Positions 5,548-21,680 of a stretch of 40,469 bases of DNA are shown in pieces; the first letter of the stretch is position 1, and the number at the start of each line of letters is the position of its first letter. Origin of the DNA: Rhodospirillaceae bacterium (GTDB taxonomy: Bacteria; Pseudomonadota; Alphaproteobacteria; UBA7887); the NCBI GenBank assembly GCA_002728255.1, contig PBWV01000040.1:1-40469 (forward strand), written 5' to 3'. A model generated the notes under the pieces. That model saw nothing but the letters and a program-made list of their open reading frames with translations. It did no database searches and was not told the origin of the DNA. Position numbers and translations under genes: made by a program.

Positions 5548-5621
5548 TGGGGCGTAGCCAAGCGGTAAGGCAACGGGTTTTGATCCCGTGATCCCAGGTT
5601 CGATCCCTGGCGCCCCAGCCA
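5548..5621 (+). tRNA. tRNA-Gln (anticodon UUG)
   Basis: A full cloverleaf can be drawn. The acceptor stem is TGGGGCG (5548-5554) with CGCCCCA (5611-5617), the anticodon stem ACGGG/CCCGT encloses the loop TTTTGAT, and the T arm reads CCAGGTTCGATCCCTGG. The anticodon is TTG at 5580-5582, which reads CAA (and by wobble CAG) glutamine codons. The discriminator is G5618 and CCA is encoded at 5619-5621. It stands alone between folD and the FmdB-like gene. Confidence 0.96.
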
Positions 5622-6047: not shown

Positions 6048-7364
6048 CTATGCAACACGATACGTGGGTTCACCAATCGAGTTAGTAGCCGATTCTAGGC
6101 CCCAAAGACGCGCTGCATTGCCGCCAAGAATCTTTGTTTTAATCTCGTCGGTCAATTGCGGATAACCATACCCCTCAACTAGTTCGTCCGGGATCTGGAA
6201 CCGACGGAATGCATCAATTTGCCACTGTGGATTGCCCCACAGGAGGGAGTCGGTACCCCACAGCACGTAATCAGATCCTAGTTGTCCGATCAACGTGCCA
6301 AGCACATGAGCGCATTCCAGTGGCCTACTTGACACGGTCGCTGCAAAGGTGGAGCCAATTTCACAATAGAGATTGTTCCGTTGGGGTTTGAAGGCCTTCA
6401 GTGCCGCCAGTTCTGCATGATATGGCCATGCGGAATGGAAAGCGATGAAGTTTAGGTCAAGGAAGTCGTCACAGACCCTGTCAAAATCCTCAGCGTGAGC
6501 ATAGCGAGCCATGAACTGGCCAAAAGGAATACCTTTATGACAACCAATGTTTTTGATGCCCAACTCGCGAGCCTTCTCCCACATCGGATACGCAAGTTCT
6601 GTGTCGTCAAACCACCAGCCTTTTTTCGGAGTGGAATCAAACGTGTACAGTTTCAGGCCCGAGGTGTCGTAGTCTTCGACGTAATGCTGCATACGCTCCA
6701 GCGTTTCGGTGACACCCTGGTTAGGCGTTAAGCCGCCAGCCAGCATGATGGTGCGGTCTGGCCACAGTTCTTTGACTTCGGCTTGCTCGTCCATCGGGAT
6801 CATGTCGTTTCCGCCGTAATCCTCTCGGAACCCGAATGGATTGAATATCCCTACGTCGGTGTCGCTGCCGTCCAGCAGAAGTTTGCCATAATTCTCTACC
6901 GTCATATCCGATGTGCCGTTTGGAAGGCCCATAGCTTTGCCAAGCCCGTCCAACAAATCAACAAACCACATTCCCTGTTCTGTCGTATTCACGCCCTTTA
7001 CGTAGCCCTCCTTCCGGGTACAGATATGGGTGTGTTGGTCAACAACCGGGCCCATCCTTCCCTTCAGGTAGCTCTTAACTTCAGCAGTAGCAGCGATCTC
7101 TCGGGCTTCAGCTTCTTTTACATCAAAAAACTTCATTCCCGTGGCCGCGTTTACCGCCAACATGGCGCCAGCGAAACCACATGCCGAGCGGAAGAAGTCT
7201 CGTCGACCCACTTCCGCGTTTTCGGCCATTTCTTCCATCCGATTCTGTACTTGCTCTCCTTCCTGGCCAGAAGTGAAATATGCCGTACCCTGTTCAAATG
7301 GATTAGCAGGGTTGACAGCCTTGCCATCAATCCCCTTAAAAGCCTTTCTATAGTCGAATTCCAT
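6048..7364 (-). CDS. Amidohydrolase-2 family metal-dependent hydrolase with a Tat-type signal
   Basis: A TIM-barrel hydrolase or decarboxylase of the amidohydrolase-2 family, 438 residues from ATG 7364; that start has AGGGGG seven bases upstream, whereas an in-frame ATG at 7394 has no such site. Candidate metal ligands are H111 and H113 (DQHTH), H276 (GCHKG), H310 (AFHSAW) and D372 (WGTDS). The C-terminus ILGGNAARLWGL is a family hallmark. A twin-arginine motif GRRDFFRSA (R54, R55) followed by a hydrophobic stretch (residues 61-77) suggests Tat export of the folded, metal-loaded enzyme, but it lies unusually far in, after an acidic stretch of about 50 residues. The divergent neighbour is a porin, which fits a periplasmic role. 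The substrate is unknown. Confidence 0.82.
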   Translation of the reverse strand: MEFDYRKAFKGIDGKAVNPANPFEQGTAYFTSGQEGEQVQNRMEEMAENAEVGRRDFFRSACGFAGAMLAVNAATGMKFFDVKEAEAREIAATAEVKSYLKGRMGPVVDQHTHICTRKEGYVKGVNTTEQGMWFVDLLDGLGKAMGLPNGTSDMTVENYGKLLLDGSDTDVGIFNPFGFREDYGGNDMIPMDEQAEVKELWPDRTIMLAGGLTPNQGVTETLERMQHYVEDYDTSGLKLYTFDSTPKKGWWFDDTELAYPMWEKARELGIKNIGCHKGIPFGQFMARYAHAEDFDRVCDDFLDLNFIAFHSAWPYHAELAALKAFKPQRNNLYCEIGSTFAATVSSRPLECAHVLGTLIGQLGSDYVLWGTDSLLWGNPQWQIDAFRRFQIPDELVEGYGYPQLTDEIKTKILGGNAARLWGLESATNSIGEPTYRVA

Positions 7365-7473
7365 GACGTTCCCCCTCTCACTCGATGCGTTCATTGTCGG
7401 TCAACATCGGGACTTTCCAGAACGATCCTTTAACAGCGGAAGGCTCCGTAGCCACCATCACAAAACATATAAA

Positions 7474-7502
7474 ATTGTAGATGGGCACCTGGGTCTTGTC
7501 AA
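7474..7502 (-). promoter_or_regulatory. Strong sigma70-type promoter for the amidohydrolase
   Basis: On the minus strand TTGACA (7497-7502), a 17-base spacer and TACAAT (7474-7479) form one of the best promoter matches in the window. Transcription would start near 7467, giving a leader of about 100 bases before the ATG at 7364. Confidence 0.7.
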
Positions 7503-7769
7503 AGCGGACTAATTTTTATGCCGGCTTTGGCAAGAATATTTTTGGTAGATGGGCTAAAATACCGGGTTCAATTTATGTCTTAAATATGCCCTATAACTGG
7601 GGTTTCTGTCGAATTTGTTTTGATAAGGGCCTTAGACACAGTTCGACCAAAGAAGCTTCATCATTGTCGGGGAAAAGCCTAAAATGTACCATATTTGGCC
7701 ACTAGGGGTGCCATATGTGTTATAAATACCACACGTGTCAGAAACGACGCGGTATGGGGGTCTCTACTG

Positions 7770-7798
7770 TTGATTTAACGGGTTTCTGATAATCTAAT
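7770..7798 (+). promoter_or_regulatory. Candidate promoter for the porin
   Basis: TTGATT (7770-7775), a 17-base spacer and TCTAAT (7793-7798). It would start transcription near 7805 and leave a leader of roughly 100 bases that holds the hairpins described at 7807-7883. Confidence 0.45.
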
Positions 7799-7828
7799 GC
7801 GGTCGTCGGGCTTTGTGGCCCGTGTTTT

Positions 7829-7872
7829 CCGCCAAAGTTTAGTCGGGGTTATCCCGCTGGCGGAGATTTTTT
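7829..7872 (+). terminator. Terminator-like two-tier hairpin in the porin leader
   Basis: CCGCCA (7829-7834) pairs with TGGCGG (7858-7863), and nested inside CGGG (7844-7847) pairs with CCCG (7853-7856). Three bases (AGA) separate it from a run of six T (7867-7872). It lies about 31 bases upstream of the porin ATG and downstream of its candidate promoter, so it could attenuate the porin or end a short leader RNA. A smaller hairpin CGGGC/GCCCG (7807-7822) precedes it. Confidence 0.4.
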
Positions 7873-7883
7873 GTTCGAACAAA
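7870..7883. promoter_or_regulatory. 14-bp perfect palindrome before the porin gene
   Basis: TTTGTTCGAACAAA is a perfect dyad centred between the T run of the leader hairpin and the porin ribosome binding site (GAGGG near 7891-7895). It could be an operator or an RNA hairpin; no regulator is encoded next to it. Confidence 0.35.
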
Positions 7884-7903
7884 CAAGAGTGAGGGTACTC
7901 AAT

Positions 7904-9400
7904 ATGCATTCGTATACAAAGGGCCTACTTTGCTCCACGGCAGCTGCCGCCTTGATGGCATCTGCTCCGGCGCAGGCCAACGATATGAACGAGATGCGTG
8001 CGGAACTGCAAAACCTTCTTGATCGCATGGAGCGCATCGAAGAGGCGCAGTCACAGACGCAAGTTGCTGAGACATCAGCATTAAGAACTAACCGGACATA
8101 TATCCGGAAACGTGCAGCAGAGCTGCCAAATCGTTATAAGCCTTATGACGTGCGTGATTTATACATTATGCCAGAGAATGCACGCGCCAATGGTGTAGTC
8201 GGCGGTGATCTTCCAGGATCTTTCAAGGTTCCTGGTTCGGACACCTCCGTTGCAATTTCTGGTTGGCTAACCATGGGCACTGTTTATGATGGTGGCACGT
8301 CTGAGGGCGGGTTCGCAACTTGGGGTCATGCTGGTCTGCTGCGTCCCGATGGCGACAACGCTGCTGGTGGTAGCGACCAGTTGACGATGGAGTCCTTATC
8401 CAACGGAATTAGCATAGCGACTTCGTCTGAATCGGATTTGGGAACGATTGGAACCAATATCCTGTTGACCACGGATCGTGATGCTCCTGCATTGGTAAAC
8501 AACTTGAACCTGAACAGAGTATGGGCTCCAAATGCTAACATGACTGTTGGCAACTGGACGTTTGGCCAGCAAGGTTTGGTGTTTACTAGTGGCGCATGTT
8601 ACGGTGAAGCAGTAAACACTGGTGGCGCACCATGCCCATTGGGTCTATCTGCTGCAGTTAAGTATTCTGGTAGCGGTGGCGGAATGGACTATGATGTCCA
8701 GCTGGTAACTCCTCAGGGTGTTCTTGACGCAGACGGTGTAGATGATGTCGGCGGCGTCAATGTCAGAGGTAGCCTTCCAGATCTGCAGGCGCGTATTTCG
8801 CGCCCACTTGGTGCTATGAATTTCAGCATGGGTATGCAAGTTCGTCAGTATGGTTACGACAACAACCAGGGGACCGGTAATACCGCAGCCTTGGCTGGTG
8901 CATCTGATGAAACCATTGGTTATGGTATCTTCCCAGAAATCACAATTCCGCTGGGCATGGATAAGTTGTATGCTGGCGTAGCTTACACCGTTGGCGGTCG
9001 TAATACGAACATCAACCACTCTTTGTGGACAGGTGGTCGTGGTGAGATGGGTACGGTTGATCCGAACACTGTAGGTATTTCCAATACCACGACAGTTTCG
9101 CTTCACTCCTACTATACTCACTGGTGGAACGACACCACGCGGTCTACTATTCACGCGCATGGTGCAAACTCTAACCCAAGCGATTTAAGCACGGGTACAG
9201 ATGGTACCACGCCGCCTCTGACAAAATGGCGGACCGTATCGGGCAACGTTGTTTGGTCAGTTGCTCCACGTGTCACAACCGGTGTCGGCGTTATTTATAA
9301 CTCCGCTCTGTTCCGTGGTGACAACTTGAATAGTAATGATACTGCAGATGCGGCCTCAGAAGCTATAGAAGGCCACTGGAGGGTTACCGTTTCCTACTAA
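7904..9400 (+). CDS. Outer-membrane porin, DcaP-like
   Basis: A 498-residue secreted protein. I start it at ATG 7904, which has TGAGGG about eight bases upstream; it then begins with a classic signal peptide (MHSYTKGLLCSTAAAALMAS, cleavage after APAQA). The mature N-terminus is a short heptad-like helix (ELQNLLDRMERIEEAQ), as in trimeric porins. It is followed by PGSFKVPGSDTSVAISGWLT, which resembles the first strand of DcaP-type porins, and by many glycine- and aromatic-rich beta segments. The last residue is tyrosine (WRVTVSY), the usual outer-membrane barrel signature. It would allow diffusion of small, perhaps anionic, solutes; the substrate is not known. A strong terminator follows. It is divergent from the exported amidohydrolase. 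Porin is sure, the DcaP label less so. Confidence 0.75.
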   Translation: MHSYTKGLLCSTAAAALMASAPAQANDMNEMRAELQNLLDRMERIEEAQSQTQVAETSALRTNRTYIRKRAAELPNRYKPYDVRDLYIMPENARANGVVGGDLPGSFKVPGSDTSVAISGWLTMGTVYDGGTSEGGFATWGHAGLLRPDGDNAAGGSDQLTMESLSNGISIATSSESDLGTIGTNILLTTDRDAPALVNNLNLNRVWAPNANMTVGNWTFGQQGLVFTSGACYGEAVNTGGAPCPLGLSAAVKYSGSGGGMDYDVQLVTPQGVLDADGVDDVGGVNVRGSLPDLQARISRPLGAMNFSMGMQVRQYGYDNNQGTGNTAALAGASDETIGYGIFPEITIPLGMDKLYAGVAYTVGGRNTNINHSLWTGGRGEMGTVDPNTVGISNTTTVSLHSYYTHWWNDTTRSTIHAHGANSNPSDLSTGTDGTTPPLTKWRTVSGNVVWSVAPRVTTGVGVIYNSALFRGDNLNSNDTADAASEAIEGHWRVTVSY

Positions 9401-9440: not shown

Positions 9441-9444
9441 ACTG

Positions 9445-9476
9445 AGGCCCCGGCAGAGATGCCGGGGCCTTTTTTC
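9445..9476 (+). terminator. Rho-independent terminator of the porin gene
   Basis: A perfect 10-bp stem AGGCCCCGGC (9445-9454) / GCCGGGGCCT (9461-9470) with a six-base loop AGAGAT is followed at once by a run of T and then CTTTT. It is the clearest intrinsic terminator in the window. It works in the plus direction only, since no T run follows on the other strand. Confidence 0.93.
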
Positions 9477-21459: not shown

Positions 21460-21680
21460 TGGCTTCTTGTGTCTTGTGGGCCAGATAGAACGGCGTTACA
21501 AAAGTAATTGATGTGCCACGGAAAACCAAACTATGTTGTTGTCCGAAGTAATATTCTTATGCTTTGTCGCTAACTTCTAACGCTTTTAGTACCAAAAAGA
21601 CCCACAAAGTACTTTGTGCCTTGAAGCACGGGCGGCGTAAGGCTAGCTTAATCTGACTTTGACTCGAGAAGTTTTGTGCC

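Follow-up and report, generated by a model that had tools for sequence, protein, structure and literature searches.

The window, the whole stretch of DNA analysed here (40,469 bases), is part of a 2.55-Mb assembly with 53 contigs. Its plus strand carries a gene (7904-9400, with the ATG at 7904) for a 498-amino acid protein that resembles, distantly, outer-membrane proteins of the DcaP or Porin_2 type. The product itself has no Pfam matches at E values up to 1 and no NCBIfam matches at E values up to 0.1. One of its relatives (L007; 26% identity, E 8e-18) scores above the Pfam cut-offs for both DcaP and Porin_2, and two further relatives (L006 and L009) score above the cut-off for Porin_2, so the name porin given to the gene in the initial annotation stands. 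A profile of the porin found no matches in the PDB, a search of viral contigs with the porin was also negative, and structure prediction from a two-sequence alignment was unusable (mean pLDDT 29). The gene is followed on the same strand by a terminator at 9444-9475, a 12-bp GC-rich hairpin with six T (-26.5 kcal/mol) that ranks first among the 133 T runs scored.

The leader in front of the gene contains several elements, all on the plus strand where strand applies. A 6-bp hairpin, H1 (CGGGCTTTGTGGCCCG, 7807-7822), has pair probabilities of 0.93-1.0. It is followed by H2, a 9-bp stem (7826-7834 with 7858-7866) in which seven of the nine outer pairs have a probability of at least 0.92, and which encloses a nested bulged stem formed by CGGG and CCCG (7844-7847/7853-7856). 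The H2 stem carries a 7-nt bulge and has U-A and U-G pairs at its base. Directly 3' of H2 is a run of six T (T6, 7867-7872), a perfect 14-bp palindrome, TTTGTTCGAACAAA, spans 7870-7883, and the Shine-Dalgarno sequence GAGGG with its spacer occupies 7891-7903. The hairpin, two-tier stem, T run, and palindrome of the initial annotation were all recovered at the same positions when the sequence was checked, although the stem had been described as ending three bases before the T run. That distance is correct for the inner arms (CCGCCA at 7829-7834 and TGGCGG at 7858-7863), but the intervening AGA is paired with UUU at 7826-7828, which makes the stem 9 bp long and brings it directly up to T6. In the predicted fold of the RNA, T6 pairs in turn with 7882-7889, and forbidding this pairing costs only 3.4 kcal/mol.

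Further upstream, at 7494-7545, an inverted repeat with 12-nt arms (7494-7505/7524-7535, 92%) precedes a T run and overlaps a minus-strand promoter-like sequence, TTGACA-17-TACAAT (7502-7474), ahead of a divergent amidohydrolase gene.

The porin is present in nine of the 96 genomes searched, the genome of the window included. The sole other genome of the same genus, which is 63% complete, gave no porin matches. Orthologs with a readable upstream region are L017 and L003 (64-66% identity; the same contig, counted once), L004 (62-63%), and L005 (40-42%); L006, another member of the family, is truncated by the end of its contig. A porin search of genome contigs gave one relative, L017, recognised by its length and upstream sequence as the contig of L003. 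Comparisons of the leader therefore involve four sequences, the window among them. The named relative is a Rhodospirillaceae metagenome assembly (SAT1449).

Promoter, upstream repeat, and palindrome

The promoter (7770-7798, plus strand) has the -35 sequence TTGATT (7770-7775), a 17-bp spacer, and the -10 sequence TCTAAT (7793-7798). TTGATTTAACG and the 17-bp spacing are identical in all four sequences with a readable upstream region, as are the five bases TAACG that follow TTGATT; the -10 is TCTAAT in the window versus TGTAAT in the three relatives. The promoter is thus conserved in 4/4 comparable sequences. A general consensus scan misses it, since the rule of that scan wants A at the second position of the -10, and the same scan lists no plus-strand promoters between 7805 and 7904. 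A strict pattern of the promoter, with at most one mismatch, has a single match in the genome of the window and occurs in three of the nine genomes of the order (G000, G005, and G006); a further genome, G008, has the same promoter in L017 and was missed because AG follows its -10. Judging from the position of the promoter, transcription would start near 7805, which would leave H1 two nucleotides from the 5' end of the RNA. The conservation of a promoter just upstream supports the view that the leader is transcribed.

Upstream of the promoter is an operator-like inverted repeat of the form TGTG-N10-CACA (TGTGTTATAAATACCACA, 7716-7733), with its centre 45 bp before the -35 in the window and 46 bp before it in all three comparable relatives. 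The site lies approximately 80-81 bp upstream of the probable start and approximately 150 bp further upstream than the palindrome. Its T tract is on the opposite strand in the window compared with the relatives, as would be expected if a symmetrical dimer site reads either way. The genome of the window has three exact matches to the pattern TGTGNTNTTTNTNNCACA and none to a reversed control; with one mismatch allowed the numbers are ten and three, respectively. The three exact sites are at the porin promoter, at a Porin_O_P gene (L026, site at 1501-1518, 117 bp before the first ATG), and upstream of a small OmpA-like beta-barrel gene (L027, site at 1501-1518).

The Porin_O_P gene adjoins a gene that is bacterioferritin-like by eye. 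Of its five orthologs whose upstream region could be read, three carry the site with no more than one mismatch, where shuffles average 0.32 (8 of 2000 shuffles reach three), and the closest ortholog, L043, and also L049 are without the site; this count omits L042, the source of the match, as well as L047 and L048, in which no reading frame was found. A search at E 0.001 found no match to the OmpA-like gene in the eight other genomes of the order. Three more exact matches in the relatives G005 and G006 (L038, L039, and L041) sit inside unrelated reading frames, which means that single matches can be due to chance. With the same type of site before three outer-membrane genes and its partial conservation, a shared outer-membrane regulator for the three genes is plausible. 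The region upstream of the Porin_O_P gene (L026 1383-1617) also contains several repeats of the GAATGA/ATTCTCA type, which we take to resemble an iron-responsive region.

The palindrome had been proposed as an operator, on top of the leader structures. As a repressor site just upstream of the porin gene it would have the merit of a perfect dyad, and when the leader alone is shuffled a perfect 14-bp palindrome turns up in only 24 of 5000 cases. For the window, however, the occurrence is at chance level: it contains three perfect palindromes with 14 bp or more, and 20 shuffles gave 2.35 on average (range 0-5). Moreover, the dyad is missing from the matching stretches of all three relatives, matched by eye (TTTGTAGAACACA in L005, ATTGTGAACAAG in L004, and TTTGAAACGAGA in L017), and the palindrome would fall at approximately +66 to +79 of the transcript. 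On these three grounds a repressor operator is considered highly improbable and was rejected; the palindrome is probably incidental. It does not fold on its own dyad in the RNA (predicted outer pair probability 0.028). Elsewhere in the window, at 21603-21618, a perfect palindrome reaches 16 bp (CACAAAGTACTTTGTG).

Folding and conservation of the leader

The leader of the window folds better than dinucleotide shuffles, with z about -2.7. For the lengths folded, z is -2.65 for 116 nt (3 of 200 shuffles equal it), -2.93 for 76 nt (3 of 200), and -2.79 for 104 nt (4 of 500). Without the last 20 nt, z is -2.48, and 12 of 500 shuffles equal it. The leader of L017 is similarly structured (z -3.06, equalled by 2 of 500 shuffles), while L004 (z +0.47) and L005 (z +0.46) fold no better than shuffles, with values of -0.2 and -0.34, respectively, when the last 20 nt are removed.

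Sequence conservation is concentrated at the two ends of the leader. The ribosome-binding region, GAGGGT(A/T)C(C/T)CAA(T/C)ATG, is common to all four sequences, as is the promoter; between the two, the leader of the window aligns poorly with those of the relatives, and a search with the leader DNA matched the genome of the window alone (1 of 96 genomes, own counted). As far as these sequences indicate, everything in the leader but its ends changes rapidly over evolutionary time. The leaders of L004 and L005 share CGATATCGATATTTT and the block GGC(C/T)ACACT(A/G)GGTTTTGGC; the window has neither. The covariation that had been proposed as a check on the structures did not appear: RNAalifold on the four leaders returned two pairs, none covarying and both within the ribosome-binding region, with the low power that four sequences give.

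A hairpin 0-2 nt from the probable 5' end is predicted in all four leaders, with weak statistics. The fraction of shuffles that match the 5' hairpin is 0.19 for the window, 0.005 for L017, 0.18 for L004, and 0.085 for L005; the combined Fisher p of 0.0045 is optimistic, because L004 and L005 share sequence and the rows are not independent. T runs occur near the place of T6 in each relative, by eye (six T in L005, six in L017, and four in L004). In L017 a strong stem is followed by five other bases and then the T run, and in L004 and L005 the T runs are without a strong stem, again by eye. None of the three relatives (L017, L004, and L005) has a stable stem that directly adjoins a T run.

A rival account of such a leader would be that it evolves fast, folds by chance, and has no function in its structures. 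The failure of the window leader to align with its relatives, the two leaders of four that fold no better than shuffles, and the chance-level palindrome are all consistent with this account. It is nevertheless thought unlikely: the other two full leaders (window and L017) beat 99% of their shuffles, and the 5'-end hairpin is predicted in all four.

Possible termination, attenuation, and short RNAs

H2 and T6 together resemble an intrinsic terminator upstream of a start codon. With -18.4 kcal/mol, the element ranks fifth among the 133 runs of at least five T on both strands of the window, according to a rough suffix-folding score. By a criterion fixed post hoc with the element already known, 6 of 1500 shuffled versions of the 99-nt leader contain a stem at or below -15 kcal/mol that directly adjoins a run of five or more T. 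A simple terminator scan with loops of at most 8 nt reports H1 with its weak TGTTTTCC tail and omits H2 because of its loop size; the scan finds five sites in 6800-9300 against a shuffle mean of 2.5.

If this were a working terminator, transcripts would stop near 7872 and yield a leader RNA of approximately 68 nt, and readthrough or a factor would permit expression of the porin; the short RNA would be either a by-product or a base-pairing small RNA comparable to ChiZ or IspZ. The 9-bp stem that abuts six U, its rank, and its rarity in shuffled leaders speak for this account, which is nonetheless rather unlikely. The abutting stem has no counterpart in the three relatives, the four leaders have no covarying pairs, the stem has its bulge and its U-A and U-G pairs at the base, and the simple scan leaves H2 unlisted.

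The suggestion that the leader is a transcription attenuator fares in a mixed way, since the terminator-like element is there, but no competing antiterminator fold was seen. When the 3' arm of H2 is blocked, the energy rises from -36.2 to -23.2 kcal/mol and nothing else pairs in its place; when the 5' arm is blocked, it rises to -26.0 kcal/mol and the nested stem only extends into 7857-7860. Blocking either arm therefore costs 10-13 kcal/mol and yields no rival fold, so the leader shows no sign of the usual two-state design. The short reading frames of the leader have no convincing ribosome-binding site (by eye, in the window only). At Rfam gathering scores there is no match in the leader, and the whole window has one tRNA (5548-5618). 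The leader thus has a hairpin and then a T run in common with classical attenuators and riboswitches, but differs from them in having no Rfam match and no competing fold. A constitutive partial terminator, or one aided by a protein or a small RNA, is possible.

A short RNA of approximately 68 nt ending at 7872, close to what had been envisaged initially, would be physically possible from the sequence. The chiP gene of E. coli encodes a porin. PMC7815308 documents two 5'-UTR-derived small RNAs in E. coli: ChiZ, which comes from the chiP leader, ends in a Rho-dependent manner, and for IspZ an end by intrinsic termination is predicted. Such precedents for leader-derived small RNAs are the reason that the short RNA is kept under consideration here. 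Like ChiZ, the candidate would stop within a porin leader, with an end of the intrinsic type as predicted for IspZ; unlike ChiZ, it would not end by Rho, and the combination of stem and T run is missing from the relatives. The parts of PMC8265627 that concern the malK 5' UTR of Vibrio describe Vsr217, an RNA from that leader with a T-rich 3' motif and conservation within the genus, and a second promoter for malK. The candidate RNA would resemble Vsr217 in its origin from a 5' UTR and its T-rich 3' motif. It differs in that the porin leader has no conserved counterpart in the three relatives and in that the consensus scan lists no plus-strand promoter at 7805-7904.

The most far-reaching version of this idea is that the lineage alone has gained an intrinsic terminator in the porin leader, which would release a short, U-tailed RNA of approximately 68 nt with two hairpins that would act as a porin-encoded small RNA or sponge. 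This is regarded as quite unlikely. If true, the RNA would scale with porin transcription and would be under an operator common to other outer-membrane genes.

The leader as a probable structured 5' UTR

The reading that we favour, with moderate confidence and as the simplest one, is that the stretch is an ordinary structured 5' UTR of the porin mRNA, whose 5'-terminal hairpin probably shields the message in the way known from ompA. In its favour are the conserved promoter and ribosome-binding region, the folding of the window and L017 leaders, the 5' hairpin predicted in all four leaders, the lack of covariation and of abutting stems in the relatives, the occurrence of the upstream site at two other outer-membrane genes, and the ompA precedent. 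Transcription would begin at approximately 7805 from the conserved promoter, probably driven by an activator on the TGTG-N10-CACA site centred at approximately -81. The RNA would then carry, in order, H1 nearly at its 5' end, H2, the U-rich stretch, and the ribosome-binding site. Placed at the extreme 5' end, H1 would most likely slow 5'-end-dependent decay, in the manner of the E. coli ompA stem-loop. H2 would add a local structure that this lineage alone has, and ordinary leader sequence, the U-rich stretch, would lead up to the ribosome-binding site. The sequences show the predicted folding and the conservation of the promoter and of the upstream site; the start site, the activator, and the stabilising role of H1 are inferred.

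The ompA leader is somewhat longer than 100 nt and has more than one hairpin. Its stabiliser is reportedly a 5'-terminal stem-loop in the 5' UTR, as Emory et al. in 1992 and Arnold et al. in 1998 are said to have found. Two further reports likewise attribute stabilisation of the E. coli mRNA to elements of the 5' UTR (PMC2777011; PMC7509114). The porin leader resembles that of ompA in belonging to the mRNA of an outer-membrane protein and in having a predicted stem-loop, H1, approximately 2 nt from the probable 5' end. It is unlike ompA in that it is not conserved between relatives, and no sequence relation between the two leaders is claimed.

Some observations run against an ordinary leader. 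H2 abutting six U is rarer, at 6 of 1500 shuffles, than would be expected of a purely incidental hairpin. Neither L004 nor L005 has a leader that folds better than its shuffles, and the 5' hairpin alone is matched by 19% of shuffles in the window and 18% in L004. The start is deduced from a promoter missed by the general consensus scan.

For the most part, then, the leader appears unremarkable, as the normal leader of a probable outer-membrane porin gene. It also carries a caution, since a hairpin with a T run behind it, when seen in just one genome, is not necessarily an attenuator. A useful by-product of the comparison is the conserved promoter with its TGTG-N10-CACA site, which together offer a testable starting point for the control of outer-membrane genes.
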